The position numbers were made by a program, and so were the translations under genes. Positions 8,301-38,308 of a stretch of 38,308 bases of DNA are shown here, piece after piece; the first letter of the stretch is position 1, and each line of letters begins with the position of its first letter. The notes beneath the pieces were generated by a model. That model ran no database searches. It was not told where the DNA came from and saw only the letters and a program-made list of their open reading frames with translations. Source of the DNA: Prevotella sp. (lineage in GTDB: Bacteria > Bacteroidota > Bacteroidia > Bacteroidales > Bacteroidaceae); contig JAFVFY010000041.1 of the NCBI GenBank assembly GCA_017475265.1, forward strand, positions 1-38,308. The letters are read 5' to 3'.

Positions 8301-8493
8301 GCACGATGACGCTCTTTTGAACCGTCTCGGCATTGGCACCAGTATATGATGCAATGATGCGCACAGTGGGCGGTGCTATCTCTGGAAACTGCTCCAATGC
8401 CAGCTGGCTCAGCCCAATGATGCCTACCAGCACCATCAGTACCGAAATCACTCCAGAAAGGATAGGTCTATCTATAAAAGTTCTAACGTTCAT
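5395..8493 (-). CDS. RND efflux transporter, HAE1/AcrB type
   Basis: 1032 residues, normal for AcrB/MexB-type pumps. It starts MNVRTFIDRPILSGVIS, has the first membrane helix at about 10-30, the two large periplasmic loops, and the central helix bundle with GTVVDDAIVVVEAV (TM4 proton-relay aspartates, near residue 405). The C-terminal bundle includes LIGLLSKTAILLTEYA. HAE1 family members use proton motive force to export hydrophobic and amphiphilic drugs, with a periplasmic adaptor and an outer-membrane factor. The adaptor gene is 49 bp upstream; no outer-membrane factor is encoded in this operon, so it would have to borrow one (for example the one at 34944). The neighbouring 51-bp gap contains four ATAACG repeats. 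Confidence 0.95.
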   Translation of the reverse strand: MNVRTFIDRPILSGVISVLMVLVGIIGLSQLALEQFPEIAPPTVRIIASYTGANAETVQKSVIVPLEEAINGVEGMMYMTSSASNNGTASIGIFFRQGTDPNMAMVNVQNRAATVQGRLPSDVVKSGLTVRKRQTSNIKQIAVYSPDSTFDRAFLANYTKINIEPRLSRIPGVGEVNVMGADYSMRIWLDPLKMARYGLTPSDVTQVLNEQNVEVATGTLGAESQNTFQYVLKYRGRYEEEQEYENLVIRSLPDGDVLRIGDIARVELGSQNYNIIGETNGSPGVNISINQVAGSNANEIIKEIDREVEEIRGSLPPGIVIEDLESKKDFLDASIASVVETLLEALLLVILVVWLFLGSWRATIIPAIAIVVSLIATLAVIYAIGFSLNMLTLFALVLVIGTVVDDAIVVVEAVQARLESKEGTTDAKQMTEEAMHNITSALITTTLVFMAVFVPVCFIGGVTGTFYTQFGLTMAIAVAISLFNALTLSPAMSAIIMRDSKLNRFQAGFNRFFMAFSGKYKHAVSGFTHRKYLAGILVVVAIVALGWMMRTTRTGLVPNEDMGTVFINVQASPGSSLQQTYGILKEVEARIKDIPQVRIYSLIAGNSNSFEQSSSNGNFTLKLKKWNERKGKGDDDQSVVQEIYRRTADIANAKIQVNTQNMLPGFGRINGFELHVQDKHGGTIQELYDYTNRLIAALNERPEISRAFTNFSLKYPQYRVEVDAALCKRRGVSPSDVLSALSGYVGGNYASNFVRFTKLYRVMVQASPEYRLDTESLNNIFVRNNQGEMSPIGQYLTLTRVYGSETLSRFNLFPSIQVGGTAAEGYSSGQAINTIREVAAEVLPEGYGYEFGGMTREEASSQNTTALVFVICIIFIYLILCALYESLFIPLAVILSVPFGLAGSFLFAHLWGLENNIYMQTGLIMLIGLLSKTAILLTEYATTRRRQGLGIVEAALDAAAVRLRPILMTSMTMVFGLLPLALATGVGANGNHSLGVGTIGGMVIGTIALLFIVPVLFVIFQTIEEKVKRRSS

Positions 8494-8542
8494 TCTGATC
8501 CTTTTCGTTATAACGTTATAACGTGATTACGACATAACGACT

Positions 8543-9646
8543 TTATTTCTTGATTTCAATTCCCTCCTTGAGCAATCCGGCACCCTCGGCGATGATAGTG
8601 TCACCCTCACTAATGCCGTCCTCCACGATGTACTCGTGACCGTTGTTCTGCGGGAACAGCGTGATAGGAGTAGCCTTCGTCTTGCCGTTGACCACGCGAT
8701 AGACGAACATGCGATTCTGCAACTCGTAGGTGGCCTCCTGCGGAATGACAATGCAATCCGAGCGATGCGTGGGCACCACCACCGTAGCACTACCGCCGTT
8801 ATGCAGCAAATGACCATTGTTAGGGAATGTAGCACGCAGCGTGACAGCACCCGTCTGGACATCGACGGTTCCGCTGATGGCACTGATACGTCCCGTTTCC
8901 TCGTACTCTTTGCCGTTGCTCAGTCGAAGAGACACCTCGGGGGCTTCTTTGATGAACGTCTCAATGGAACCGTATTGACCGATAAGGTCGAGGGTTTGAT
9001 TCTCGCTTATGCTGAAATAGACATACATCTCTGTGTCGTCGGCCACCGTCACCAGCGGCTCACTGATGTTGCTGCTGACGAGCGAGCCTACATGCCAGGG
9101 AATCATCGATGCCACACCGCTGACGGGGCTCTTCACCTCCGTATACGAAAGATTGTTGCGGGCGTTCACCTCTTGTGCCTTTGCCTGTGCCAATGCCGCC
9201 TCAGCCTCTAAAAGGGCGTTGCGTTTCGTCTCTACTGAGAAATCGCTCACGACGTTGCCATCCTTCAGTTGTGTCTCGTTCTCAAAGTTCATCCGCGCCG
9301 TCGCCAACCGTGCCTCCGCACTCTTGCGTGTTGCCTCTGCGACCTCCAGGGCAGCACGATAAGGCACTTGGTCGATGATGAACAGTGTCTGCCCTTTGTG
9401 CACGGCCTCGCCTTCGCCAGTCAGGATACGTGTGATGCAGCCCGATACCTGTGGGCGCACCTCCACAATCTGACGACCCGTAAGCCGAGCACTATAGTGG
9501 CGCTCAAGCGTCATGTCCTTCCGCCCAACCACCATCGTTTGGTACTGCGCTGCATCGTTTGCTTTGGGCTTTTCCTCACCACACGAAAACAACAGCAGTT
9601 CAACAAATGATGCGAGAATGACAACGAAGTATCTCCTAAGTCTCAT
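8543..9646 (-). CDS. RND periplasmic adaptor lipoprotein (MFP family, AcrA/MexA type)
   Basis: 367 residues with a lipobox LLFSC (acylated Cys22). The half-lipoyl motifs VRPQVSGCITRIL and KGQTLFIIDQVPY flank the alpha-helical hairpin (about 85-150), followed by NLSYTEVKSPVSGVASM and the beta-barrel/membrane-proximal domains. It bridges pump and outer-membrane factor in the periplasm. It is transcribed with the pump directly downstream. It lies 40 bp after the GH53 fusion gene, so it is likely read from that gene's promoter; no separate -7 box was recognised. Confidence 0.93.
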   Translation of the reverse strand: MRLRRYFVVILASFVELLLFSCGEEKPKANDAAQYQTMVVGRKDMTLERHYSARLTGRQIVEVRPQVSGCITRILTGEGEAVHKGQTLFIIDQVPYRAALEVAEATRKSAEARLATARMNFENETQLKDGNVVSDFSVETKRNALLEAEAALAQAKAQEVNARNNLSYTEVKSPVSGVASMIPWHVGSLVSSNISEPLVTVADDTEMYVYFSISENQTLDLIGQYGSIETFIKEAPEVSLRLSNGKEYEETGRISAISGTVDVQTGAVTLRATFPNNGHLLHNGGSATVVVPTHRSDCIVIPQEATYELQNRMFVYRVVNGKTKATPITLFPQNNGHEYIVEDGISEGDTIIAEGAGLLKEGIEIKK

Positions 9647-9686
9647 GTTTAGTTATTGGTTTAATGATTCTTTATATATAAAATGA

Positions 9687-11768
9687 TTACTGCACAACCA
9701 CTTTTCTGCCCTGAACGATGTAGATACCCTTGGGTAGCTGGTGGTAGTTTGTGATGCGACGGCCGGTAATAGTGTAGATATGTGGGGATTGCAAATCCCC
9801 TCCAACAGAGGACTGCAAATCCTCTCCAACCACTGTCACCTCTTTGATGCCATCGGCCCATTCCTCAGAATGACGGAGGCCGAGGAAGGCATCAAGGGCG
9901 ATGGAGGGTTTTCGTGTGAGAGGGTTCCAGGCACCCATGTCATAGTCATCGGCCAGTTCTGGCTCCCAATAGTACAAGCCAGAGGCACCTGCATCCATTA
10001 ACAGTTGTAGGAAGTCACACAGCCATTGGTTAGCCTCCAACGCACGGTCGTTATAGTAGCCTGTCTCAACGATGAGCACGGGCTTGCCGTAGCGCTCCTT
10101 CAGCGTCCTGACATTCTGTGCCACCTTCTTGATAAGTGAGTCGGGGGACAGTTTCGATGCCTTCACATGCACGGAGAGACCGATGGCATCCCATCTGGCT
10201 CCGGCCACCTGAAGTGTGTCGAAATAGTCGGTGAGCCACTGCGTGTCCACACATTCGCTGACGTGGATAACGGTCTTCACCTCTGGGTTGATGCCCTTGA
10301 TGGTATCGTGGGCAGCGTTGATGAAGCTCACGAAAGCAGGGGTTTGTCGGCCCTCTTCCCATAGGAAGCCGCCGTCCACCTCATTGCCTATCTGCACCCA
10401 GCGCAGCTTGCCCGTAGAATTAAAGCTCTTCACGGTTCTGCCCGTATACTTGGCGACGTCGGCGACGAGCATTTCTGCTGTATGCGATGCCCATAAGCTC
10501 GATTTGACATTGTCGCCCCACCAGTCGCAATAGTGCATGTCGAGCATGATGTTCAAATCCTGGTCCTTGGCTGCGTTGGCCAGTGCCTTAGCGTAAGAGG
10601 TGTTGAAGTCGGAGGGCGTAGGACTGACCAGCACACGCAGACGGACGCTGTTGATGCCCTGCTCTTTCAGGATAGACATGAACTCCTTCTTCTGTCCTTC
10701 ACGGTTGTAGAACACCTTTTTCTGCTGGGTCTCTAGCGTCAGCGAACTGACATCGGCACCAAAGTCGAAGATACCTTCGGCCTCATCACGGTTGAACACG
10801 TTGTTGGTGACTGTCTCAATATCGGTGAACGGACCATCGTAGTTCATCTCTTCCTCCGAGAAGTTGCGTGTCTTCACCGTCCAGTTACTGGAGAAGCCTT
10901 TGAGGTCGGGCTTCAGGAAGATACGAGCGTTCTGCTTGTAGCCCTTCAGGTGCCAGTCCATCCATTTTAAGGCGAGCTTTCCGAACTGGCCGCCATATTG
11001 GTCCCAATAGGTGCCACCATGCCCGGCATCCGACAGGTCGGCCCATGCCACCTGCTTCTTCACTTTGCCGAAGTCGGTCTTGGCGTTATCGTAGGCCACA
11101 TCACCTGTTCCTCCTGTCATATAGATGATAGGACAGTGGAGCGAGTTCAGCGACTGTGGCGAGGCACCACCCATTGACATGCCACCCATACCGGCGTTCA
11201 TGATGAGCAGCGTCTTTACACGTGAGTTGGCACAGTTGGCGATGGCCTGTGCACCACCACAGGAATGGCCAGAGAGGGCGATGTTATTCAAATCGATGGC
11301 ATGATAGTAGTCGCTGGTGGCCAATTTCTCCTGCTTCAACAGCCAGCTGATGGCCGTGCCGACCATCTTCTCGTCGGAACCGCCGTCGTCGCGCTCGTCG
11401 TCCGTCATCTCGAAAGCGCCGATACCCACTACGACATAGCCATGCGAGGCCATCTCGTTGAGCATACGCTCATAGCCGATTGACGAGCCCGAGCAGGCAC
11501 CGTTACACCAGATGAGAATGGGTAGCGGACCTTCACGACGGGCAGCATACTGCACGTTGCGGGGACGGTAGACGGTGAAGTCGGGCAATGACTTCTCGCT
11601 GACGATGATAGCGCGGTAGCGTCCGCTTCCACCATTGTCCACTTCCTTCTGACGGGCTACTTGGTCGTTGATGGTCTCAGTGTCAGCACCAAAGGCTGTC
11701 ATGGGCACCATGGTCAGCACTACGAAAGATAAAAGTGCTGCGATTCGTTCAAATGGTTTCAGTTTCAT
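9687..11768 (-). CDS. Secreted fusion: alpha/beta-hydrolase (esterase-like) + GH53 endo-galactanase + T9SS-like tail
   Basis: 693 residues. Residues 1-27 are a signal peptide (MTAFGA, then DTET). About 45-290 is an alpha/beta-hydrolase of the dienelactone-hydrolase/chlorophyllase type: oxyanion region WCNGACSG, nucleophile elbow GHSCGG (S169), and likely D223 and H250. About 330-635 is a GH53-like barrel: RLRVLVSPTP, LDMHYCDWWGD, acid/base E463 in QIGNEVDGGFLW, nucleophile E568 in LIVETGYY, and YYWEPE. The C-terminus IYTITGRRI...LPKGIYIVQGRKVVVQ resembles the T9SS sorting tail common in Prevotella. GH53 cleaves beta-1,4-galactan of pectin; the esterase could remove acyl groups from the same polymer (inference). 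The linker at 649-661 is encoded by palindromic repeats. The gene leads the first RND operon, an odd pairing. Confidence 0.88.
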   Translation of the reverse strand: MKLKPFERIAALLSFVVLTMVPMTAFGADTETINDQVARQKEVDNGGSGRYRAIIVSEKSLPDFTVYRPRNVQYAARREGPLPILIWCNGACSGSSIGYERMLNEMASHGYVVVGIGAFEMTDDERDDGGSDEKMVGTAISWLLKQEKLATSDYYHAIDLNNIALSGHSCGGAQAIANCANSRVKTLLIMNAGMGGMSMGGASPQSLNSLHCPIIYMTGGTGDVAYDNAKTDFGKVKKQVAWADLSDAGHGGTYWDQYGGQFGKLALKWMDWHLKGYKQNARIFLKPDLKGFSSNWTVKTRNFSEEEMNYDGPFTDIETVTNNVFNRDEAEGIFDFGADVSSLTLETQQKKVFYNREGQKKEFMSILKEQGINSVRLRVLVSPTPSDFNTSYAKALANAAKDQDLNIMLDMHYCDWWGDNVKSSLWASHTAEMLVADVAKYTGRTVKSFNSTGKLRWVQIGNEVDGGFLWEEGRQTPAFVSFINAAHDTIKGINPEVKTVIHVSECVDTQWLTDYFDTLQVAGARWDAIGLSVHVKASKLSPDSLIKKVAQNVRTLKERYGKPVLIVETGYYNDRALEANQWLCDFLQLLMDAGASGLYYWEPELADDYDMGAWNPLTRKPSIALDAFLGLRHSEEWADGIKEVTVVGEDLQSSVGGDLQSPHIYTITGRRITNYHQLPKGIYIVQGRKVVVQ
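9784..9825. repeat. Two tandem palindromic units inside the GH53 gene
   Basis: GGGGATT-GCA-AATCCCC (9784-9800) and AGAGGACT-GCA-AATCCTCT (9807-9825), each followed by TCCAAC. They belong to the same palindrome family as those at 27097-27207 and 38126-38188. Here they are in frame and encode the repeated DLQS linker between catalytic and sorting domains. Confidence 0.75.
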
Positions 11769-12006: not shown

Positions 12007-13759
<1,753 letters not shown>

Positions 13760-14029
13760 TTAACAGATAACGGCCAGCACATCTGATTGGCGCATCATGA
13801 GGAACTTCTCGCCATCGAGTTCAATCTCGGTGCCGCTGTACTTGCCATAGAGCACCTGGTCGCCCTCCTTGAGAATCATCTCTTCGTCCTTGGTTCCTTT
13901 ACCTACGGCCTTGATGGTGCCGCGAAGTGGTTTCTCCTTGGCGGTGTCAGGAATGATAATGCCGCCTACTTTCTCTTCAGCCGGTGCGGGGAGAACGAGC
14001 ACGCGGTCTGCTAGTGGTTTGATAGTCAT
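13760..14029 (-). CDS. groES: Co-chaperonin GroES (Hsp10)
   Basis: 89 residues, the usual length. It starts [28 protein letters not shown], with the mobile loop near residues 17-32, and continues [33 protein letters not shown]. It caps the GroEL ring. It is the first gene of the operon. Upstream lies a long AT-rich leader and, about 120 bp away, the palindrome TGACATTTTGTCA, a candidate control site; no CIRCE element was found. Confidence 0.98.
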
Positions 14030-22157: not shown

Positions 22158-23726
22158 ATGAGGAAGTTTTTTTTGCTTCTGATGTTTGGCATCGTGCTCT
22201 CGTCTGCGGCCCAAAAGCCACAGACGAGAGCTTCGTCGCGTCCCAAGACCCAGAAGACCCAGTCTTCCCAGAAGCCCAAGACTTCCCAGAAAACCCAGTC
22301 TTCCCAGAAATCCAAACCCTCCCAGAAATCCCAGAAGTCTCAGAAGACCCAGAAAAAGCCCACCCAGAAGCAGCAACTCCAGGCCCAGCAACAACAGCTG
22401 AAGAAAAATATCGCCGCCAATAAGCGACAGAAGGCTGAGCTGGAGCAGAAGGTGAAGAAGCAGCTCGAGGAGGCCTTCATCCTTGGCACAGAGATTGACG
22501 AGCAGAAACGCGTCATCGACACCATCCGCGTCAGCCTCGACTCCTTGGAGCAACAGATTGTACATCTCAACGCCGAGAAAAAGAAGCTGGAGGGTGAGTT
22601 GCGCGACCGCCAGGCACGCTATGCCAGCTCCGTTCGCTACATGCACCGCAACCGCAAGATGCAGTCGCGCATGATGTTTGTCCTCTCGGCGAAGAACATC
22701 AATCAGATGTACCGTCGTACCCGCTTCATGAACGAATACTCCACCTACCAGCGTGCCCAAGGCGAGGCTGTGAAACAGAAGCAGGCGCAGGTGGACCAAA
22801 AGCAACAGGAAATCACTCAGGTAAGGGATGCCCGCAAAGCCATGCTTGCCCGTGAAGAGAAGGAGCGTCAGACCCTACAAAAGCAGCAAGACCAGAAACA
22901 GCAAATGGCCAAGGAGCTGCAGAAGCAGCAGCGCACCGTTACCGCCCTCATCGACCAGCAGCAGAAGGAGGAGGCTAAGATTAACGCAGAGATTGATCGC
23001 ATCATTGCCGAGGAGATAGCACGCGAACAGGCACGCCTGGAGGCTGAGCGAAAGCGCAAGGCCGAGGAGCAGGCACGGCTGGAACGCGAGCGTCAGGAGC
23101 GTGAACGACTGGCCCGCGAAAGAGAGAAAGAACAGAAGAAACAAGAGAAACAGAAAAAGAAACAGGAAAAGGCCATTGAGAAGCAGGTGCGTAAGGAGAC
23201 AAAGGAGATGGCCCGTTCTTCCTCTTCTCGTAGGGAGTCTAGCTCGTCTAATTCCGCTAGTTCCGAATCCCGTAGGGTATCTAGTTCGTCTAATTCCTAC
23301 ATCGCCGCCGACCCCGATGCTCGTCTCACCGGCAGCTTTGCCAGCAACAAGGGGCGTCTGCCCATGCCCATCACTGGTTCCTACCAGCTGGTGCGCGGAT
23401 TTGGCGAAAATGTCGTTGACGGCACACGAGGCGTGCACCTCTCCAGTAAGGGCATCTATCTTAAGGGGAAGCCCGGTGCACAGGCTCGCTGCGTCTTCGA
23501 TGGTGAGGTGAGTAAAATCTTCAACACTGGTAACTCATACGTCGTCATGGTGCGTCACGGACGTTTCATCTCTGTCTACAGCGACATCGCATCCGTCAGC
23601 GTCAGGGCTGGCCAGAGGGTTTCCACTAGTCAGATTCTCGGAAACCTCGGCCCCACTAGCATCATGCAGTTCCAGCTCCGCAATTGGACTGAACTGCTTA
23701 ATCCCCGCCTCTGGCTCCGCAGGTAG
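22158..23726 (+). CDS. EnvC-like murein hydrolase activator (degenerate LytM/M23 domain)
   Basis: 522 residues, starting MRKFFLLLMFGIVLSSAAQ (signal peptide). A Lys/Gln/Ser-rich repetitive segment (about 24-75) is followed by a long coiled coil (about 75-350, including repeated EARLERERQERERLA-type heptads), a Ser-rich linker, and a C-terminal LytM domain (about 395-522). The LytM zinc ligands are not conserved: the HxxxD site reads GVHLSSKGI, and the terminal HxH reads MQFQLR. Catalytically inactive LytM domains are the hallmark of EnvC/NlpD-type activators that switch on amidases at division. No amidase gene is next to it. Confidence 0.85.
   Translation: MRKFFLLLMFGIVLSSAAQKPQTRASSRPKTQKTQSSQKPKTSQKTQSSQKSKPSQKSQKSQKTQKKPTQKQQLQAQQQQLKKNIAANKRQKAELEQKVKKQLEEAFILGTEIDEQKRVIDTIRVSLDSLEQQIVHLNAEKKKLEGELRDRQARYASSVRYMHRNRKMQSRMMFVLSAKNINQMYRRTRFMNEYSTYQRAQGEAVKQKQAQVDQKQQEITQVRDARKAMLAREEKERQTLQKQQDQKQQMAKELQKQQRTVTALIDQQQKEEAKINAEIDRIIAEEIAREQARLEAERKRKAEEQARLERERQERERLAREREKEQKKQEKQKKKQEKAIEKQVRKETKEMARSSSSRRESSSSNSASSESRRVSSSSNSYIAADPDARLTGSFASNKGRLPMPITGSYQLVRGFGENVVDGTRGVHLSSKGIYLKGKPGAQARCVFDGEVSKIFNTGNSYVVMVRHGRFISVYSDIASVSVRAGQRVSTSQILGNLGPTSIMQFQLRNWTELLNPRLWLRR
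22245..22375 (+). repeat. Imperfect CCCAGAAG/TCTTCC repeats in the EnvC-like gene
   Basis: Purely coding low-complexity DNA built from CCAGAAG and TCTTCCCAGAA units, giving repeated SQK/TQK codons. Replication slippage here would change linker length without breaking the frame when whole codons are gained or lost. Confidence 0.6.
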
Positions 23727-29852: not shown

Positions 29853-31034
29853 ATGAAACAGAAAAAGATTCTTCTATCCATTGCCGCCAGTGCGCTCCTC
29901 GTGGGCTGCGGCGGTGGTGGCGGTCGCCCCAACTTTGGCGACAACGAGTATCCTGTGACGACGGTGCAGACAAGCTCGGCTGACATGCAGAGCAGCTACC
30001 CCGCCACCATCTACGGCATCCAGGACGTGGAAATCAGGCCGAAGGTTTCAGGATTCCTCACTCAGATTAACGTAAAGGAGGGGCAGACGGTAAACGCCGG
30101 CCAGGTGCTCTTCGTCATCGACAACGAGACCTACCAGGCCACCGTGCGCCAGATGCAAGCCTCCGTGAACACGGCGCAAACCGCCGTGAACACGGCCAAG
30201 CTGACCTACGAGAACACCAAGCAGCTGCACCAAAACCGCGTGGTGGGCGACTACGAGCTACAGACAGCCGAGAACGCCTACGAGAGCGCGAAGGCCGGGC
30301 TCGCCCAGGCACAGGCCGGACTCGCTAACGCCAAGGAGAACCTCAGCTTCTGCTACGTGAAGAGCCCCGCCAAGGGTGTCGTGGGCACGCTGCCACTCAA
30401 GAAGGGTGCCTTGGTGAACACCAACAGCGTGCTGACCCACGTGGCCGACATCAGCCAGATGGAGGTTTACTTCTCCATGACCGAGAAGGACATGCTCGCA
30501 CTGTCGAAAGCCGAGGGTGGCCTGCGCGGGGCCGTGGATGCCCTGCCCGCCGTGAAACTGTTGCTGGCCGACGGTACGGAATATGGTTATGAGGGCAAGG
30601 TGGTGACCGCCAGCGGCGTCATCGACCAGGCCACAGGCTCGGTGCAGCTGAAGGCACACTTCCCCAACCCCGACCATCTGCTGAAAAGCGGCGGGAGCGG
30701 CTCCATCATCATCCCCCGCACGGAAAGCGAGGCCATCATCATACCGCAGAGCGTCGTAGCAGAGGTGCAGAACAAGAAATTCGTCTATCTGCTGGGTGAC
30801 AGCAACAAGGTGATTTACCACGAGATAAAGGTGGACCCGCAGAACGACGGCAACAACTACATCGTCACCGAGGGGCTCAAGCCTGGCGACAAGTACGTCA
30901 CCAACGGCATCACCAAGCTAACCGACAAGATGGAGATTGTGCCCATCACGCCGGAGCGATACCAGCAGAAAATACAGGAGCAGGCCAAGGCCATGACTGC
31001 CGGCGACATAGTGAATGCGATGCAGAAGAAATAG
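29853..31034 (+). CDS. RND periplasmic adaptor lipoprotein (MFP family)
   Basis: 393 residues with lipobox LVGC (Cys19) followed by a Gly-rich stretch. Lipoyl half-motifs VEIRPKVSGFLTQINVKEGQTV and AGQVLFVIDNETYQATV flank the hairpin helices (about 90-160), then NLSFCYVKSPAKGVVGTLPL and the beta-barrel domain. It is the first gene of a complete tripartite efflux operon; the pump starts 38 bp later. More GC-rich than the unknown pair to its left. Confidence 0.95.
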   Translation: MKQKKILLSIAASALLVGCGGGGGRPNFGDNEYPVTTVQTSSADMQSSYPATIYGIQDVEIRPKVSGFLTQINVKEGQTVNAGQVLFVIDNETYQATVRQMQASVNTAQTAVNTAKLTYENTKQLHQNRVVGDYELQTAENAYESAKAGLAQAQAGLANAKENLSFCYVKSPAKGVVGTLPLKKGALVNTNSVLTHVADISQMEVYFSMTEKDMLALSKAEGGLRGAVDALPAVKLLLADGTEYGYEGKVVTASGVIDQATGSVQLKAHFPNPDHLLKSGGSGSIIIPRTESEAIIIPQSVVAEVQNKKFVYLLGDSNKVIYHEIKVDPQNDGNNYIVTEGLKPGDKYVTNGITKLTDKMEIVPITPERYQQKIQEQAKAMTAGDIVNAMQKK

Positions 31035-31072: not shown

Positions 31073-34000
31073 ATGACATTTACCAACTTTATAAAGAGGC
31101 CTGTCCTTTCGACGGTGATTTCCATCCTCATCGTCCTGTTAGGTGTCATCGGACTGGTCTCGCTGCCTATTGAGCAGTACCCCGATATTGCGCCGCCCAC
31201 GGTGGCCGTCTGGACCAGCTATCCCGGCGCCGACGCAGAGACGGTGAAGAACTCCGTCATCACGCCGCTGGAGGAGAGCATCAACGGCGTGGAGGGCATG
31301 GACTACATCTCTTCGACCGCCTCGACAGGCTCGGCACAGATCAGCGTGCTCTTCCGCCAGGGTATGAACCCCGACATGTGTGCCGTCAACGTGCAGAACC
31401 GCGTGCAGCAGGCGCAGGCACTGCTGCCCGCAGAGGTGACGCGCATGGGCGTGACCGTGCAGAAACGACAGACCAGCCAGGTGCTCATGTTCTCCCTCAC
31501 GTCCGTGGACGGGCGCTACGACGACGAGTTCCTCACCAACTACAACAACATCAACATCATCCCCGCCATCAAGCGCATACAGGGCGTGGGTGACGTGCAG
31601 AGCCCCGGTCTGAAGACCTACTCCATGCGCATCTGGCTGAAGCCTGACGTGATGAAGCAGTACGGGCTGATGCCCTCGGACATCAACAACGTGCTGGCCG
31701 AGCAGAACGTGGAGGCCGCCCCGGGCACCTTCGGCGAACAGAGCGACGTGGCCTACGAGTATGCCATGCGCTACACCGGCCGACTGAAGACCGCCGAGGA
31801 GTTTGGCGACATCATCATCCAGAGCAACCCCGACGGAACGACGCTCAAGCTCAAAGAGGTGGCGCGCATAGAGCTGGGCGGACAGCAGTACTCTGTGTCG
31901 ATGAAGAACAACAACCTGCCATCGGTATTAGGCATGGTGCAGCAGATTGCCGGCTCCAACGCCAACGAGATAGCCAAGCAGGTGAAGGCCGAGCTGGAGG
32001 AGCAGGCCAAGCTCTTCCCGCCGGGCATGATATACAAGATTAACTATGACGTGACGGAGTTCCTCTACGCCTCGATCGAGGAGGTGGTATTCACCCTCAT
32101 CTTCACCCTCATCCTGGTGTTCATCGTCATCTACATCTTCCTGCAGGACTGGCGCTCTACGCTCATCCCGCTCATCGCCGTGCCCGTGTCGCTCATCGGT
32201 ACGTTCTTCTTCCTCGAGGTGTTCGGCTTCAGCATCAACCTGCTCACGCTGTCGGCCCTGCTTTTGGCAATTGCCATCGTCGTGGACGATGCCATTGTGG
32301 TGGTCGAGGCCGTACACGCGAAGCTCGACCAGGGCTACAAGTCCACGCTGACGGCCTCCATCGACGCCATGAACGAGATCTCGGGCGCCATCATTTCCAT
32401 CACGCTGGTCATGGCCTCAGTGTTCATCCCCGTGTCGTTCATCGGCGGTACCAGCGGAACATTCTACCGTGAATTCGGCGTGACCATGGCCGTGAGCATC
32501 TTCATCTCGGCCCTCAACGCCCTGACGCTGTCGCCGGCCCTCTGCGCCATCTTCCTGAAGCCGCACGACAAGGATGGGCATGAGAAAAAGATGTCGGTGG
32601 TGGACCGCTTCCATGCCTCGTTCAACACGGCCTACGACGGCATCCTCGGCAAGTACAAGAAGGTCATTGAGAAGTTTGTGCGCCGCCCGGTGCTCATCAT
32701 GGTGGTGGTCATCATCGGCATCGTCGCCCTCGTCGGCTCGCTACTGACCACGAAGACCGGCCTCGTGCCCGACGAGGACACTGGCACCATCTTCTGTACC
32801 ATCTCCATGCCACCCGCAACGTCGGTGGAACGCACCAAGCAGGTCATCAGCGAGGTGGACTCCATCCTCGGGGCCGACCCAGCCATACAGAGCCGCGAGC
32901 AGATACAGGGCTACAACTTCATTGCTGGTTCCGGTTCCGACCAGGCCACGTTCATCATGAAGCTGAAACCGTTCAGCGAGCGACAGAAAGGCTTCTGGTG
33001 GAAACTCTCAGGCCTGTGGGAGGGCGACGGTATCTACCGTTTCTTCCTGAACCCATTAGAGTCGAATGGTGTCATCGCACAGATCTTCATCAAGACGGCC
33101 CACATCAAGGATGCGCAGATACTGGCCTTCTCCCCGCCTATGATTCCGGGCTTCTCGGCCAACAGCGGCGTGTCCATCGTGATGCAAGACCGCACGGGCG
33201 GCTCCTTGGACAAGTTCTTCGGCATCGTCAAGGACTACCTCGCCGAGCTGAACAAGCGGCCAGAGTTCCAGACGGCACAGACATCGTACAACCCTAACTA
33301 CCCGCAATACATGGTTCATGTGGACGTGGCGAAGTGTAAGCAGAGCGGCATATCCCCCGCCACCATACTCTCCACCCTACAGGGCTACTACGGCGGACTC
33401 TACGCCTCTAACTTCAACGCCTACGGCAAGCTGTACCGCGTGATGATACAGGCATCGCCAGAGACGCGCAAGACACTGGAGTCGCTCAATAATATATATG
33501 TACGCACGAACAGCGGCGAGATGGCCCCCATACAGGAGTTCTGCCAGCTGGAGCGCGTTTACGGCCCGTCAAACATCAACCGCTTCAACCTCTTCACCAG
33601 TATCAACGTGACGGCGACAGTGGCCAACGGCTACTCCACCGGTGAGGCCATCAAGGCCGCACAGGAGGTGGCAGCCGAGATGCTGCCCACGGGCTACACC
33701 TACGACTACCAGGGACTGACACGTGAGGAGGCAAAGGCATCGAACTCCACGGGCATCATCTTCCTGCTCTGCCTCATCTTCATCTACCTCATACTCTCCG
33801 CGCAGTACGAGAGCTACATTCTGCCGCTGGCCGTCATTCTCTCCGTGCCCTTCGGACTGGCAGGCTGTTTCCTCTTCACCAACGTCTTCGGACACGCCAA
33901 CGACATCTACATGCAGATCTCGCTCATCATGCTCATAGGCCTACTGGCAAAGAACGCCATCCTCATCGTGCAGTTCGCACTGGAACGCCGACAGACGGGC

Positions 34001-34339
34001 ATGGCCATCTCATGGTCGGCCACGCTCGGAGCAGCCGCACGTCTGAGGCCTATCCTCATGACATCGCTGGCCATGATCATCGGTCTGCTGCCACTGATGT
34101 TCGCATCGGGCGTGGGAAAGAACGGTAACCAGACGCTCGGTGCAGCCGCCGTGGGCGGTATGCTCGTGGGCACGTTGCTCCAAATCTTCGTGGTGCCTAC
34201 GCTGTTCACACTCTTCCAGACACTACAGGAGAAAGTATCGCCCATGAAGTTCGACGACGAAGAGGGTAACGAAGACGTGGCTGCCGAGCTGCAACAGTAT
34301 GCACATTCGACTCCAGTAGATTATACTATAGAGAAATGA
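31073..34339 (+). CDS. RND efflux transporter, HAE1/AcrB type
   Basis: 1088 residues. It begins MTFTNFIKRPVLSTVISIL. TM4 carries LLAIAIVVDDAIVVVEAVHAKL (proton-relay aspartates near residue 405). The C-terminal bundle has LIGLLAKNAILIVQFAL. An extra loop around 640-660 (ERQKGFWWKLSGLWEGDGIYRF) enlarges it compared with the first pump (1032). The acidic tail (DDEEGNEDVAAELQQYAHSTPVDY) is unusual. Same architecture as AcrB/MexB; substrates unknown. The TGA stop lies inside the first unit of the heptad array that follows, so the gene's 3' end is directly joined to that element. Confidence 0.96.
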   Translation: MTFTNFIKRPVLSTVISILIVLLGVIGLVSLPIEQYPDIAPPTVAVWTSYPGADAETVKNSVITPLEESINGVEGMDYISSTASTGSAQISVLFRQGMNPDMCAVNVQNRVQQAQALLPAEVTRMGVTVQKRQTSQVLMFSLTSVDGRYDDEFLTNYNNINIIPAIKRIQGVGDVQSPGLKTYSMRIWLKPDVMKQYGLMPSDINNVLAEQNVEAAPGTFGEQSDVAYEYAMRYTGRLKTAEEFGDIIIQSNPDGTTLKLKEVARIELGGQQYSVSMKNNNLPSVLGMVQQIAGSNANEIAKQVKAELEEQAKLFPPGMIYKINYDVTEFLYASIEEVVFTLIFTLILVFIVIYIFLQDWRSTLIPLIAVPVSLIGTFFFLEVFGFSINLLTLSALLLAIAIVVDDAIVVVEAVHAKLDQGYKSTLTASIDAMNEISGAIISITLVMASVFIPVSFIGGTSGTFYREFGVTMAVSIFISALNALTLSPALCAIFLKPHDKDGHEKKMSVVDRFHASFNTAYDGILGKYKKVIEKFVRRPVLIMVVVIIGIVALVGSLLTTKTGLVPDEDTGTIFCTISMPPATSVERTKQVISEVDSILGADPAIQSREQIQGYNFIAGSGSDQATFIMKLKPFSERQKGFWWKLSGLWEGDGIYRFFLNPLESNGVIAQIFIKTAHIKDAQILAFSPPMIPGFSANSGVSIVMQDRTGGSLDKFFGIVKDYLAELNKRPEFQTAQTSYNPNYPQYMVHVDVAKCKQSGISPATILSTLQGYYGGLYASNFNAYGKLYRVMIQASPETRKTLESLNNIYVRTNSGEMAPIQEFCQLERVYGPSNINRFNLFTSINVTATVANGYSTGEAIKAAQEVAAEMLPTGYTYDYQGLTREEAKASNSTGIIFLLCLIFIYLILSAQYESYILPLAVILSVPFGLAGCFLFTNVFGHANDIYMQISLIMLIGLLAKNAILIVQFALERRQTGMAISWSATLGAAARLRPILMTSLAMIIGLLPLMFASGVGKNGNQTLGAAAVGGMLVGTLLQIFVVPTLFTLFQTLQEKVSPMKFDDEEGNEDVAAELQQYAHSTPVDYTIEK

Positions 34340-34422
34340 CCATAGATAAGTTGACTATAGACTATAGACTTTAGACTATAGACTATAGACTTTAGACTAC
34401 AGACTACAGACTACAGACTTTA
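34338..34422 (+). repeat. Heptad array, left arm, locus 1
   Basis: Ten exact-register 7-bp units (GACTATA, GACTTTA, GACTACA) from 34353 to 34422, preceded by GACCATA at 34338, which overlaps the pump's stop codon, and one 8-bp unit. The array fills the gap up to the GxxExxY gene. Confidence 0.95.
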
Positions 34423-34436
34423 GACTTGTAACTGTT

Positions 34437-34832
34437 ATGGACACAATAGAGTTGATTGAGACGATAGTTGATCGGGCTAAAATAGTAAGAGCACATTTTG
34501 TGCCTGGCTATGAAGAGAAAGTGTATAAGAATGCTTTGTACATAGAATTAGTGGAAGCTGGTCTTTCTGTGGAGACTGAAGTTCCTTTCAACGTGTCGTA
34601 CAAAGGACATGTTATCGGGTCATATAAAGCCGATATGATTGTGGAGAAAAAAGTGATCGTGGAGTTGAAGGCCATCACCACCCTTTCGCCTGTCAATGAG
34701 GTGCAACTCGTGAACTACTTAGCCGCCACCGGCATTGATGATGGCATCCTTCTTAACTTCGGCTCTGAGCGCATCCAGATACGCCACCGCACCCGCCTCT
34801 ATTGCCCCAAAGCCGTCATTACCGACATCTAA
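34437..34832 (+). CDS. GxxExxY protein (PD-(D/E)XK nuclease-like)
   Basis: 131 residues starting MDTIELIETIVDRAKI. The signature GYEEKVY occupies residues 24-30. The stretch from D66 (KADMIVE) to E76-x-K78 (VELKA) matches a PD-(D/E)XK core, with Q90 in NEVQLVNYL as the following helix. The family is widespread, often in several copies per genome, and has no established function; it is expected to be a nuclease or nucleic-acid-binding protein. It interrupts the pump/outer-membrane-factor pair of an efflux operon and is flanked by oppositely oriented heptad arrays. The first two-thirds have AT-rich codons and the last third matches the host, so the gene may be chimeric. No hydrophobic segment. 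Confidence 0.9.
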   Translation: MDTIELIETIVDRAKIVRAHFVPGYEEKVYKNALYIELVEAGLSVETEVPFNVSYKGHVIGSYKADMIVEKKVIVELKAITTLSPVNEVQLVNYLAATGIDDGILLNFGSERIQIRHRTRLYCPKAVITDI

Positions 34833-34837
34833 TGCCC

Positions 34838-34936
34838 AAAGTCTAAGGTCTGAAGTCTAAGGTCTAAAGTCTAAAGTCTGAAGTCTAAGGTCTAAAGTCT
34901 AAAGTCTGAAGTCTGAAGTCAAAAAGTACTATAGTC
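34838..34936 (+). repeat. Heptad array, right arm, locus 1
   Basis: Eleven exact-register units (TAAAGTC, TGAAGTC, TAAGGTC) at 34844-34920, with a partial unit before and TATAGTC at 34930-34936, just before the outer-membrane-factor start. These are the reverse complement of the left arm's general form (GACTTTA-like), so the two arms are opposed around the GxxExxY gene. Confidence 0.95.
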
Positions 34937-34943
34937 AAAGAAA

Positions 34944-36344
34944 ATGAAATATATGAAAAAAATACTTCTTACTTTTTCCGCAGTCTTGTTACTGTCAAGT
35001 TGCGGTGTTTACAACAAGTACGAGCGTCCGGATGTGGTCACCGATGGTCTCATCCGCGATGCTGTGGTCGATGGCGACACGTTGGCCGTTGCCCCGCAGG
35101 ACACTGCGTCCTTCGGCAACCTGCCGTGGCGCGATGTGTTCACCGACCCGCAGCTGCAGTCGCTCATTGAGCAGGGTCTGGAGCGCAACGCCAACCTGCT
35201 GAACGCCACGCTCAACGTGCAGATGTATGAGGTCATGCTGAAGGCCGCTAAGCTGGCTTTCCTGCCCGCTGTCAGCTTCGGCACACAGAACATGGCGTCC
35301 ATTTCGACGGTCTATACCGACCCGTCGTCGACCACGAAGAGCTATTCGTTTCCAGTTACGGCATCGTGGACGCTAGACCTCTTTGGCAACATCCTGTCGA
35401 AGAAACGTTCCACGCAGATGAAGTTGCTGGGCTTAAAAGACCATCAGATGGCTGTCCGTGCCCAGGTCGTCAGCGGCATCGCCAATGCCTATTACACGTT
35501 GCTGATGCTCGACGAGCAGTTGCGCATCGTCACTGAGATGCAGGCAATGGCGAAGGAGACATGGGAGATGATGCAGCTACAGTACAACCTTGGTCGTGTG
35601 CGTTCCACCAACGTGCAGAGTGCCCAGGCTGCCTATCTCTCCACACAGACGCAGATGAACGACTTCCGCCGTCAGATACGTGCCACAGAGAATGCCCTCT
35701 CGCTGCTCCTCGGCCAGCAAGGTCAGCAAATTCCCCGCACGACTTTGGCACAGCAGTCGCTGCCCTCGCAGTTCAAGACCGGCGTGGGTGTCGCCCTGCT
35801 GAAGAACCGTCCCGACGTGCACAACGCCGAGATGACGCTGGCCGCCTGTTTCCACGACGTGCAGACGGCTCGCTCGCAGTTCTACCCCAACATCACCGTG
35901 GGTTTCACGGGGGCTTTCAGCAACATGAGCGGAGCCATGAACCCCGGAAAGTGGCTTACCACGCTCTTCGGCTCGCTCACGCAGCCCATCTTCCAGCGCG
36001 GAGCTCTGACGGCCAACCTCAAGGTGTCGAAGCTACAGTATGAACAGGCGTTCAACACCTGGCAGAACCTTATCCTGCAGGCAGGCAACGAAGTGTCGAA
36101 TGCGTTGGTGAACTACAACGGCTACGATGATAACTCGAAGGTGGAGAGCGAGCGCGTGGAGGTGCTTACAAAGAACGTGGAGGACACCCGTGCCCTCTAC
36201 AAGAGCAGCGGCTCAACGTACCTCGAAGTACTTACCGCACAACAGCAACTGCTCTCCGCACAGCTCAACAAGGCATCTGCCGACTTCAACAAGATGCAGT
36301 CGGTGGTATCACTCTACACTGCCCTCGGCGGTGGTGGGAAATGA
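34944..36344 (+). CDS. Outer-membrane efflux protein (OprM/NodT family lipoprotein)
   Basis: 466 residues, starting MKYMKKILLTFSAVLLLSSC with the lipobox at Cys20 (an internal ATG at 34953 is also possible). The two OEP repeats are seen: PWRDVFTDPQLQSLIEQGLERNANL and LKNRPDVHNAEMTLAACFHDVQTARSQFYPNI. The paired helical hairpins (for example LEVLTAQQQLLSAQLNKASADF) build the periplasmic tunnel, and the beta-barrel strands lie between them. It completes the tripartite pump begun at 29853. The stop TGA at 36342-36344 overlaps the next heptad array, as does the pump's stop. Confidence 0.95.
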   Translation: MKYMKKILLTFSAVLLLSSCGVYNKYERPDVVTDGLIRDAVVDGDTLAVAPQDTASFGNLPWRDVFTDPQLQSLIEQGLERNANLLNATLNVQMYEVMLKAAKLAFLPAVSFGTQNMASISTVYTDPSSTTKSYSFPVTASWTLDLFGNILSKKRSTQMKLLGLKDHQMAVRAQVVSGIANAYYTLLMLDEQLRIVTEMQAMAKETWEMMQLQYNLGRVRSTNVQSAQAAYLSTQTQMNDFRRQIRATENALSLLLGQQGQQIPRTTLAQQSLPSQFKTGVGVALLKNRPDVHNAEMTLAACFHDVQTARSQFYPNITVGFTGAFSNMSGAMNPGKWLTTLFGSLTQPIFQRGALTANLKVSKLQYEQAFNTWQNLILQAGNEVSNALVNYNGYDDNSKVESERVEVLTKNVEDTRALYKSSGSTYLEVLTAQQQLLSAQLNKASADFNKMQSVVSLYTALGGGGK

Positions 36345-36489
36345 CCATAGAACAATGACTTCAGACTATAGACCACAGACTACAGACTATAGACTTCAGA
36401 CTATAGACCACAGACTACAGACTATAGACTTCAGACTATAGACTATAGACTACAGACTATAGACTACAGACTGCACATTACAGATTATA
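36343..36489 (+). repeat. Heptad array, left arm, locus 2
   Basis: Twenty-one units in register, the last two degenerate, starting with GACCATA overlapping the stop codon. A 35-bp super-unit (GACTTCA, GACTATA, GACCACA, GACTACA, GACTATA) occurs twice in tandem, pointing to recent expansion. Confidence 0.95.
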
Positions 36490-36506
36490 GATTAACAAAT
36501 AAAGCT

Positions 36507-36709
36507 AAAAGTCTAAGGTAAGAAGCCAAAGTTCAAAAATCTGAGGTCTGAAGTCTAAAGTCTAAAGTCTGAGGTCTAAAGTCTAAAGTCTAAAGTCTGA
36601 GGTCTAAAGTCTAAGATCTGAAGTCTGAAGTCTAAAGTCTGAGGTCTAAAGTCTAAAGTCTAAAGTCTAAGGTCTGAAGTCTAAGCTCTAAAGTCAAACA
36701 ACTAAAGTC
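36507..36709 (+). repeat. Heptad array, right arm, locus 2
   Basis: Twenty-nine units in one register, 22 of them well conserved (36542-36695): TAAAGTC, TGAAGTC, TGAGGTC, TAAGGTC. It is the opposed partner of 36343-36489, with only 17 bp of AT-rich sequence between the arms and no gene. It ends 18 bp before the LpxA-like ATG. Confidence 0.95.
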
Positions 36710-36727
36710 ATAAATAAACTAAAGTTA

Positions 36728-37510
36728 ATGAATATGTCAGAGATAAGTCCAAAAGCTGAGGTCAGCCCAAAGGCTCGTATCGGCAACAACTGTAAGATAT
36801 TCCCCTTCGTTTATATCGAGGACGATGTGGAGATAGGCGACAACTGCATCATCTTCCCCTTTGTCAGCATCCTTGACGGTTCGCGCATCGGCAATAGCAA
36901 CAAGATTCACCAAGGCTCGGTCATTGCCGCCCTGCCACAGGACTTCAACTATCGTGGTGAGAAGTCGTACGTGAAGATAGGTGACAACAACGTTATCCGT
37001 GAGAACGTGGTCATTAACCGTGGCACGTATCGTGACGGCTGTACCGTTATTGGCGACCACAACTTCATCCTTGAGGGCGTACACATCAGTCACGACACCG
37101 TTGTAGGCACACATTGTGTCTTCGGCAACGGTGTGGAGATTGCCGGCGACTGCGTCATAGGCAACGGTGTCATCTTCTCCACGGGAGCCATTCAGAATGC
37201 CAACACCCGTGCCGGCGACCTTTCGCTGATCCAGGCCGGATGTGCCTTCTCCCACGACGTGCCACCCTACGTTATCGCCGGCGGCACCCCCATGGAGTAC
37301 GGCGGACCGAACACCACGGTGATGGATTTTGCCAAGATAGACAAGAAGGTACAGAAGCACATCGCCAACGCCTACCGTCTGCTCTTCCACGGTAAGATCA
37401 GCGTCTACGACGTTATCAAGCAGATTAAAGACCAGGTGCCTGACAGCCCCGAGATAAGGAACATCATCACCTTCCTCGAGAACACCAAGCGAGGCATCAT
37501 GTGTAAGTAG
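36728..37510 (+). CDS. LpxA-like acyltransferase (left-handed beta-helix)
   Basis: 260 residues. Hexapeptide repeats (IGDNCIIFP, IGNSNKI, IGDNNVIREN, VINRGTYRDG) form the beta-helix up to about 190, followed by a C-terminal helical domain (KVQKHIANAYRLLFHGKISVYDVIKQI). The HISHD motif (H119, H122, D123) matches E. coli LpxA H122/H125/D126, the catalytic region for O-acylating UDP-GlcNAc in lipid A synthesis. It lacks the HQF block that canonical LpxA has after the catalytic region (here AIQNANTRAG), and it is not next to lpxD, lpxC or fabZ. It may be a paralogue with altered acyl or sugar specificity. Start could be 36728 or 36734. No promoter box was seen in the repeat array upstream. Confidence 0.75.
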   Translation: MNMSEISPKAEVSPKARIGNNCKIFPFVYIEDDVEIGDNCIIFPFVSILDGSRIGNSNKIHQGSVIAALPQDFNYRGEKSYVKIGDNNVIRENVVINRGTYRDGCTVIGDHNFILEGVHISHDTVVGTHCVFGNGVEIAGDCVIGNGVIFSTGAIQNANTRAGDLSLIQAGCAFSHDVPPYVIAGGTPMEYGGPNTTVMDFAKIDKKVQKHIANAYRLLFHGKISVYDVIKQIKDQVPDSPEIRNIITFLENTKRGIMCK

Positions 37511-37591
37511 ATGAGGGCAACAAGGAACTAAAAATCTCAAAAAGTGCCATCAGCCATCATTGATGGTATTAACTTGCAGAATACCAGACGA

Positions 37592-37922
37592 TTATCCTAT
37601 GACGGCTTGCCTCTGAAGCCGTCATAGAGCCGTCATAATTCAGGCTCTCCTTACTTTTCTCCTACCATCATAGCCGTCATCTCACAGCATAAGAACGTCA
37701 GTTCCCCATAGTTTCCACGGAGGAAACTAACTGTTTCCATGGGAGAAACAAACTGTTTCTCCCATGGAAACAATTTGTTTCCGTTATTATTGTTATCATG
37801 AAACTCCGTTTAAACCAGTAGGTTACCTTACTATTTCCTACATTTTTGACTACTTATCCATTAAAAATGAGGGCTATATGACAGCATTATGACGGCTCAA
37901 AGAGCAAACCGTCATAGGATAA
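37592..37922. mobile_element. Non-coding palindromic element with ATGACGG repeats
   Basis: Terminal inverted repeats 37592-37610 and 37904-37922 match at 18 of 19 positions (TTATCCTATGACGG core). Seven GACGGCT/AGCCGTC-type motifs occur in and around it. The centre is a perfect palindrome (37732-37772). No ORF; 331 bp, in a 568-bp gap. Confidence 0.7.
37732..37772. repeat. Perfect 19-bp-arm palindrome
   Basis: The arms 37732-37750 (starting TGTTTCCATGGGAG) and 37754-37772 are exact complements with only AAC between. A smaller hairpin GTTTCC-ACGGA-GGAAAC flanks it at 37711-37727. Such a structure can extrude as a cruciform and would form a very stable RNA hairpin. Confidence 0.9.
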
Positions 37923-38024
37923 CGTTTTATAAATCAGTAATATAACTATAAGAATGACGGCTTGACCCTATTTTTCAAAAAAATTCTGAGAAATACTTTG
38001 CAAGTATCATTTTCTTCCTAATAT

Positions 38025-38055
38025 TTTGCTGTAAGAAAATTATTGTGTAACTTTG
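38025..38055 (+). promoter_or_regulatory. Promoter of the terminal lipoprotein gene
   Basis: TTTG (38025-38028) and TAACTTTG (38048-38055) with a 19-bp spacer, 23 bp before the ATG at 38079. Confidence 0.7.
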
Positions 38056-38078
38056 CCCCTTACTTACATAAATGCGAA

Positions 38079-38308
38079 ATGAACTATAACCGCCTTCCTC
38101 TTTTCCTGACCCTTGTCCGCTGGCTGGGATTTACCCGCTGGCTAGGATTTGTAATCCCTGCTCGTTGGGTATTGGGATTTGCAATCCCCCTCCTGTTGCT
38201 CACGGCTTGCGACGCTGACCGCCATGAACGTATGCAGCAGGAACTGCTCCGTGCCCGTAAGATGAACAAGGAGTACGTCGACTTCACCACCGACTCCGTG
38301 ATGAAGGA
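38079..38308 (+). CDS. Lipoprotein with repeat-derived signal peptide, possible TPR sensor (3' end outside window)
   Basis: The 76 visible residues start MNYNRLPLFLTLVRWLGF. The hydrophobic N-terminus runs to the lipobox LTAC (Cys44), longer than a usual lipoprotein signal. Within it WLGFTRWLGFVIPARWVLGFAIP is encoded by three palindromic repeat units, so the signal peptide appears to have been lengthened by repeat insertion. The mature start (DADRHERMQQELLRARKMNKEYVDFTTDSVMK) resembles the opening of Bacteroidales TPR-containing lipoproteins/sensors. The remainder is beyond the window. Confidence 0.7.
   Translation, partial: MNYNRLPLFLTLVRWLGFTRWLGFVIPARWVLGFAIPLLLLTACDADRHERMQQELLRARKMNKEYVDFTTDSVMK
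38126..38188. repeat. Palindromic units inside the terminal signal peptide
   Basis: Units GGATT-TGT-AATCC (38145-38157) and GGGATT-TGC-AATCCC (38174-38188), plus a truncated copy GGGATTTACCC at 38126. The first two share the direct repeat CCGCTGGCTgGGATTT (38117-38132, 38135-38150; 18-bp period). Frame is preserved. Confidence 0.8.

Follow-up and report, generated by a model that had tools for sequence, protein, structure and literature searches.

Inverted arrays of gene-specific short words around GxxExxY nuclease-like genes suggest a hitherto unrecognised type of selfish genetic element

A small gene of the GxxExxY family lies between the pump gene and the outer-membrane factor (OMF) gene of a resistance-nodulation-division (RND) efflux operon in Prevotella sp. 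(assembly GCA_017475265.1, contig JAFVFY010000041.1, positions 1 to 38,308; this whole stretch of 38,308 nucleotides is called the window here). The gene is bracketed by two arrays of a 7-nt word, the heptad GACTNNA, in opposite orientation. Many other GxxExxY genes are bracketed likewise by inverted arrays of a word of their own, and the word follows the relatedness of the proteins. These findings suggest a selfish genetic element of a type so far overlooked, one by which short repeats are spread. The most fitting view of the element in the window is that of one such module lodged in an efflux operon. It is considered just about probable that the heptad arrays and the GxxExxY gene form one operon-dwelling selfish module, similar to REPIN-RAYT systems and built around an unrelated protein.

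The gene (34437..34832, + strand) encodes 131 amino acids of a minimal PD-(D/E)XK nuclease family (PF13366, TIGR04256). Its left arm (34353..34429, + strand) is made of about 10-11 heptads (GACTATA, GACTTTA, GACTACA), strict at 34353-34422 and fading out to about 34429. The right arm (34837..34920, - strand) holds 12 heptads in opposite orientation, reading TNNAGTC on the + strand. Tandem Repeats Finder (TRF) scores were 106 and 118, respectively, and 34359-34427 and 34839-34907 form an inverted match of 82.6%. A preliminary description of the window had already reported opposed heptad arrays around a GxxExxY gene between pump and OMF, and the positions, TRF scores and PF13366 match agree with it. 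Its start of the left array within the stop codon of the pump has to be corrected: only a lone GACCATA (34338-34344) overlaps that codon, and it is shifted by one base relative to the register of the array, which starts at 34353, 13 nt past the stop. The same description pointed to a difference between the arms at heptad position 5. This difference is real and recurs in 4/4 opposed heptad pairs counted, namely two in the window and those of loci L097 and L098. A occupies the position in 7/10, 13/17, 5/11 and 7/14 heptads of the left arms and in 1/13, 0/21, 0/10 and 5/20 of the right arms, so that A faces A. The separate roles once assigned to the arms are not shown by this difference alone. 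In 16 single arrays elsewhere, position 5 is mostly T in either orientation to the genes; L050, L052 and L057 are among the exceptions.

The flanks of GxxExxY genes were compared by an arm score, in which 200 nt upstream are matched with 200 nt downstream after reverse complementation, with a threshold of 15; the neighbouring open reading frames (ORFs) of the same loci served as control. In the genus, 27/33 GxxExxY genes reached the threshold vs 3/49 neighbours. The corresponding counts were 38/76 vs 3/245 for named loci of many phyla and 9/29 vs 1/38 for the phylum sample. The genus set (34 loci given, 33 counted) includes the window's own gene and both L116 and L117, which have identical flanks, while the degenerate or weak L036, L037 and L038 were never in it. 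The named and phylum sets are 76 of 80 and 29 of 30 given loci, and the genus and named sets overlap in a few species. The genus flanks (30 loci and four paralogues from the source genome) carry inverted arrays of varied words, mostly other than the heptad, e.g., GACGAATG facing CATTCGTC, ACAGGAGTAC facing GTACTCCTGT, or GGCACGGATTACACGG facing its own reverse complement. Among the exceptions are a few loci with direct instead of inverted words, e.g., L102 and L108, and a few without clear words, e.g., L099. Bracketing is common and specific, yet not universal by arm score.

The two arms of one gene also belong together. In a re-pairing test, which combined left and right flanks of different GxxExxY genes, a flank's real counterpart ranked highest in its row in 22/32 (genus), 27/74 (named) and 15/29 (phylum) cases after removal of duplicates and short flanks. 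For neighbour ORFs this was so in 1/49, 2/80 (80 drawn from the 245) and 0/38. Moreover, the word follows protein relatedness. Protein identity correlated with the best arm-to-arm similarity among the 33 genus genes (rho 0.336; maximum of 2,000 permutations 0.273) and among 74 named genes (rho 0.337; maximum of 2,000 permutations 0.125). Words were shared by 50% (genus) and 47% (named) of the pairs at 0.60-0.85 protein identity and by 0-3% below 0.50. The relation extends across phyla, with a between-phyla rho of 0.262 when phyla are labelled from record titles (within-phylum shuffles: mean 0.092, maximum 0.221). Array and gene behave as a unit, since the word varies by gene, matches between the arms and tracks protein relatedness. 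The unit proposed in the preliminary description is upheld in this sense, for many GxxExxY genes with their own inverted words; the heptad as a word shows no such tie to the gene. At 3084-3591 of L126, modules are nested, with heptad arms outside and GACATCAA-type arms inside, and the inner word also flanks a GxxExxY gene (L100) in the same genome.

Heptads are found well beyond the GxxExxY gene. Across the whole 4.75-Mb genome, the pattern GACYNNRGACYNNRGACY gave 184 + 155 matches vs 15 + 2 for the reversed control; the arrays are not due to chance, because the pattern is far above this control. In 27 other stretches of the genome, chosen around heptad sites, 29 further arrays were read, 20 of them outside called ORFs (mostly between co-directional genes) and 9 inside. 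No heptads were seen within about 1.5 kb of L031, L032, L034 and L035, the genome's four remaining whole GxxExxY genes, nor within the same distance of the weak or broken matches L036 and L038. The strict heptad pattern occurs in 8/120 genomes of the genus. A GxxExxY gene stands between heptads in only 2/7 of the other heptad genomes (G059 and G101), among the 25 genes read there. Together with the window's gene, these two heptad-flanked genes (67% identity for G101, 62% for G059) occupy the first three ranks in the genus search. The G101 gene sits at the same RND locus and that of G059 at another, since neither pump nor OMF is matched within its 3.4-kb locus. The heptad as a specific partner of GxxExxY, an idea raised with the preliminary description, is rejected under the refuting condition named there, given the four heptad-free paralogues, the 29 arrays elsewhere and the other heptad genomes. 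The view that the arrays are unrelated to the gene was rejected too; it had been based on a search that covered heptads alone, and other words were then seen in the inverted arms.

A second protein family shows the same layout. PF05635, the intervening-sequence protein (IVP) family, was picked as a test family because the intervening sequences (IVSs) of 23S rRNA have complementary borders. In a phylum sample (30 given; 28 counted for arm score, 26 for re-pairing), 5/28 PF05635 genes scored at least 15 vs 1/50 neighbours, and the own partner was best of its row in 12/26 vs 2/47. All six clear PF05635 genes of the source genome are bracketed, each by its own word. In the heptad genomes, where 53/60 loci were read and three held no ORF, 21/25 PF05635 genes vs 14/25 GxxExxY genes reached an arm score of 16; this reading leaves out seven weak matches in long frames (L356, L360, L379-L382, L386). 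In the phylum sample and the heptad genomes, some ORFs were picked by approximate motif criteria, and a few of these choices seem mistaken. The relation between protein and word is weak in this family (rho 0.069, inside the permutation maximum of 0.094), with words shared in 32% of the pairs at 0.60-0.85 identity. The inner ends of several PF05635 arms (L367, L368, L385, L391) have a common tail like TTTGCTACCGC or AGCTGCGC, which is possibly a fixed boundary box.

Copies of the words without a gene were sought with five GxxExxY and six PF05635 modules of the source genome in 1.14 Mb (654,065 bases outside the heptad-picked sites, partly from the same contigs, and 482,186 heptad-picked bases, window included). 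The word GGGGAGTGAAA, which forms the arms of one IVP gene, occurs in 7 gene-less inverted pairs. One gene-less inverted heptad pair was found in the stretches read, and it lies in the window, where the preliminary description had overlooked it. It is longer than the pair around the GxxExxY gene, with 17 heptads on the left (36357..36475, + strand) and 24 heptad lengths on the right (36542..36709, - strand), and is located downstream of the OMF stop codon, ahead of the gene that follows.

Arrays also lie within conserved genes. A heptad array (L062:8736-8854) lies in frame within an ORF for a GH95 enzyme (7093-9705). In the homologue 2rdy, residues 5-494 align with residues 62-551 of the query and residues 497-756 with residues 589-859; the 37 query residues between are the translation of the array, where 2rdy has two. 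In-frame arrays were found in six other conserved ORFs (L063, L042, L044, L058, L059, L051), 7 of the 9 in-ORF arrays having been examined. Besides the GH95 enzyme, these ORFs encode an M28 peptidase, a DUF58 protein, a sensor kinase, a TonB receptor, a CbiG/CobJ fusion and a helicase. The arrays encode repeats such as RPQTSDF, and GACTNNA is in sense orientation in all seven. The two arrays outside the examined set, L045 and L060, run antisense to their called ORFs.

The junction between pump and OMF was compared in relatives, as the preliminary description had recommended, at the loci of 29 among 113 other genomes with a match; gap classes were counted by eye. The gap is 20 nt or shorter in 17/29 relatives. 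It holds CCCTCCC-type inverted arms without such a gene in 9/29, ACGAATT-type arms without a gene in 1/29 and a short array of another heptad (GTGAATA) in 1/29, and G101 alone (1/29) has heptads together with GxxExxY. As the gaps fall into these differing classes, elements appear to be gained and lost here. In the CCCTCCC/GGGAGGG pairs (L069, L070, L072, L073, L077, L080, L081, L086, L095), one arm lies at the stop codon of the pump, and the other is close to the first OMF codons or within them, apparently recoding the signal peptide.

The protein of the window matches PF13366 (PDDEXK_3) at 1.7e-32 (112.6 bits, cut-off 22) and the NCBIfam family TIGR04256 (GxxExxY) at 1.4e-35 (122.1 bits, cut-off 35). 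Its motifs are G24xxE27xxY30, D66, E76xK78 and Q90xxxY94. Neither alignment (A1, A2) shows any variation at D66, E76, K78 and Y94, and Q90 is invariant in A1 and conserved in at least 90% of A2; the catalytic D...ExK and QxxxY motifs are intact. This conservation suggests, from sequence, an active RecB/Cas4-type nuclease. An AlphaFold2 model built from 43 natural sequences reached a pLDDT of 90.9. The only PDB matches of the model below E 0.001 in Foldseek were chains of SSO0001 (4ic1, best 2.1e-4), which we take to be Cas4; above 0.001 followed lambda exonuclease, LHK-Exo, AdnA and MGME1, then tRNA splicing endonucleases. The closest folds of the model are Cas4/lambda-exonuclease-type nucleases, with TM-scores of about 0.5 or less, and together with the PF13366 and TIGR04256 matches they bear out the PD-(D/E)XK-like core noticed earlier. 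A PDB sequence search up to E 1 returned 2f8l as sole match (0.1). A defence system was considered and rejected: PADLOC gave only weak matches, to Cas4 (0.011 and 0.019) and to AbiEii. No CRISPR or helicase partner was seen next to the gene among the operon genes. The five GxxExxY paralogues of the source genome are 24-64% identical and are not the near-identical multiple copies of a transposon or insertion sequence. GxxExxY is carried by 74/120 genomes of the genus and 51/99 of the phylum sample. The window protein had no match in 50,697 phage records, and a Planctomycetes member (query from L187) matched 8/72,556 plasmid records, so GxxExxY genes are rare on plasmids.

The data show the bracketing, the match between a gene's own arms, the link of word to protein identity, dispersed gene-less copies, variable presence at orthologous junctions, an array within a conserved enzyme whose homologues lack one, and co-direction with the operon. 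How such a module might work can be outlined, and we infer recognition, cleavage, spreading, mobility and a copying route for the GxxExxY nuclease. A small Cas4/lambda-exonuclease-type nuclease would be bracketed by inverted arrays of a short word that the same nuclease recognises, and gene-less arrays of this word would appear at other genomic sites. The enzyme's target would be its own word, probably presented in hairpin or single-stranded form while the DNA is replicated. This action would then trigger copying or template switching, by which arrays would be lengthened, homogenised and re-seeded. A broader proposal is made tentatively and falls short of probable: GxxExxY nucleases and IVP-type four-helix-bundle proteins may be the agents that make a large part of the short tandem word repeats of bacteria (heptamers and the like) for which there is no explanation, each lineage spreading its own word, as a selfish class that spans phyla and is REPIN-RAYT-like but mechanistically different. 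If the pairing of protein and word is specific, it would give the GxxExxY family a testable biochemical role, point to a possible maker of bacterial heptamer repeats and connect the IVS protein family with elements of this sort.

Several observations weigh against this interpretation. Arms are not universal, as 84/154 GxxExxY loci with distinct flanks reach a score of 15. Direct-repeat flanks reach it as well, in 7/33, 14/76 and 9/29 loci of the genus, named and phylum sets vs 2/49, 6/245 and 2/38 neighbours. Among the genes read, 5/7 of the other heptad genomes have no heptad-flanked GxxExxY or IVP gene, some of these genomes being incomplete and the gene reading partial. The heptads elsewhere in the source genome are single arrays without an inverted partner. 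Only 2/11 modules (those of the heptads and of GGGGAGTGAAA) have gene-less inverted pairs and the other nine none in the 1.14 Mb, and reversed control arms passed the threshold for 3/53 pairs in this test. Neither target-site duplication nor excision nor an empty site at base resolution was seen, and the loci compared held no near-identical empty site. Finally, PF05635 is a four-helix bundle and not an obvious nuclease. As it is bracketed alike, a nuclease cannot be the whole story.

The layout may also be explained at the RNA level. The arms would pair in the operon transcript with the ORF in the loop, and an RNase III-like cut would leave the insert tolerated and expressed, as in the S23-encoding IVS of 23S rRNA. 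Sections of PMC4990558 describe complementary borders and RNase III excision for known IVSs, and the IVS family PF05635 is indeed bracketed alike here, in the heptad genomes as in the six clear genes. The transcript of the window element folds strongly (z -10.2, 20 shuffles), which agrees with the long RNA stem presenting the ORF that had been envisaged earlier. Gene order fits as well: both flanking genes are co-directional with the ORF in 109 cases (90 GxxExxY, 19 IVP) and both opposed in 5 (3 and 2), with one neighbour each way in 38 and the ORF at the locus edge in 12. The mismatches between the arms, nonetheless, disfavour a selected stem, because G-U should outlast A-C if pairing is selected, and it does not. 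In GxxExxY genes, G-U and A-C mismatches number 127 and 141; in IVP genes they number 41 and 91, an A-C excess that is not clear by element (sign 15 vs 8). Purine-purine mismatches exceed pyrimidine-pyrimidine ones in GxxExxY (350 vs 208) and are even with them in IVP (84 vs 75). A selected stem is also unlikely because the recurrent asymmetry at position 5 sets A opposite A, and the other heptad arrays read in this genome lack an inverted partner. With no G-U excess over A-C in either family, a selected RNA stem is not supported, and an RNA-level intervening sequence appears unlikely overall. Action on DNA is favoured over action on RNA, with the operon placement serving expression and tolerance.

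Generic slippage, or dispersed repeats of an unknown maker in operon gaps, could likewise have produced the arrays, the GxxExxY and IVP genes being passengers that tolerate or prefer such gaps. Heptads and other words do occur far from these genes, the CCCTCCC-type arms fill the pump/OMF gap of relatives that have no such gene, and inverted words can surround an unrelated ORF of 286 amino acids (L321). Passengers would not be expected to have matching arms of their own or words related to their protein, even across phyla, and matched arms are rare at neighbour ORFs, which makes this explanation quite unlikely. It is highly improbable that the arms are regulatory sites, i.e., operators or mRNA-stability stems through which a small protein controls itself or the operon without any mobility. 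Such sites would suit the co-directional operon placement and the closeness of the arrays to stop and start codons, but the words vary from gene to gene within one genome, copies lie inside the coding sequences of unrelated enzymes, and the element is missing from most orthologous junctions read. The selfish module acting on DNA remains the preferred reading of the element.

The host operon of the window was assigned from family profile matches. It comprises a membrane-fusion protein of the HlyD family (29853..31034), the RND pump (ACR_tran, 31073..34339) and the outer-membrane efflux protein (OEP, 34944..36344), all on the + strand. A hexapeptide acyltransferase of the LpxA-like type (36728..37510, + strand; Hexapep, Acetyltransf_11) follows the gene-less heptad pair. 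An Rfam search of 33000-38308 gave no match at the gathering score. Elsewhere in the window, an inverted pair CCCCCTAAGTTAGGGGG...GGTCTGAACAAGCG at 13640-13763 recurs in nine other stretches read of the genome, and a 9/18-bp tandem repeat, CCCAGAAAACCCAGACTT, lies at 22245-22354, early in a long ORF with an M23 peptidase domain at its end.

Short tandem repeats of this size are known from other bacteria; in cyanobacteria, short tandemly repeated repetitive (STRR) sequences have been linked to heptanucleotide repeats. Among the open-access literature, judged mostly by titles and abstracts, no report tied matched inverted words to GxxExxY or IVP genes. Heptad strings led to no paper on such repeats, going by titles and abstract openings, and six strings of GGATT and CGCAGAG words were not found in the open-access literature. 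A mention of GxxExxY in the part of PMC8934634 covered concerns the annotation of a reverse transcriptase. Gene-less heptamer arrays as such are already known from TAACTGA repeats (PMC4679880, in part), and modules of a gene with inverted repeats from REPIN-RAYT systems (PMC3116915, in part). According to sections of PMC4679880, the TAACTGA heptamers form mostly intergenic tandem arrays with as many as 43 copies, and some Bacteroidetes have them too. The repeats of the main genome are direct, apart from one that is inverted. The same sections propose S1, Csp and CsrA-type binders, report a similar distribution of XisH/XisI and BOGUAY_0693, and contain the author's suggestion that a repeat-binding protein might be the mobile element; GxxExxY and four-helix-bundle genes are not mentioned in them. 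The heptads of the source genome resemble these repeats as intergenic 7-nt tandem arrays of one consensus, and differ in the word, GACTNNA instead of TAACTGA.

The 23S rRNA IVS, as portrayed in part of PMC4990558, shares with the window element an insert of about 430 nt in a transcribed region, complementary borders and one small ORF, and its IVP family is itself bracketed alike here between ordinary genes. The window element differs in lying between RND pump and OMF genes and not in rRNA, in encoding a nuclease-like protein and in showing no sign of selected RNA pairing. Cas4/RecB-type and lambda-exonuclease-type PD-(D/E)XK nucleases are similar to GxxExxY in predicted fold and motifs, whereas GxxExxY is a minimal stand-alone protein of 131 amino acids. 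In REPIN-RAYT systems, as far as described in sections of PMC3116915, a gene is flanked by inverted short repeats with one repeat class per gene, and inverted pairs and singlets are dispersed in extragenic space. The window's gene shares with them the inverted gene-specific repeat on both sides. The units differ, however, since GACTATA-like words are not palindromes and form tandem arrays of words of about 7-11 nt, in contrast to the palindromic REPs, and the arrays also occur inside coding sequences. The protein differs as well, being a PD-(D/E)XK nuclease or a four-helix bundle in place of the RAYT (HUH/Y1) tyrosine transposase.

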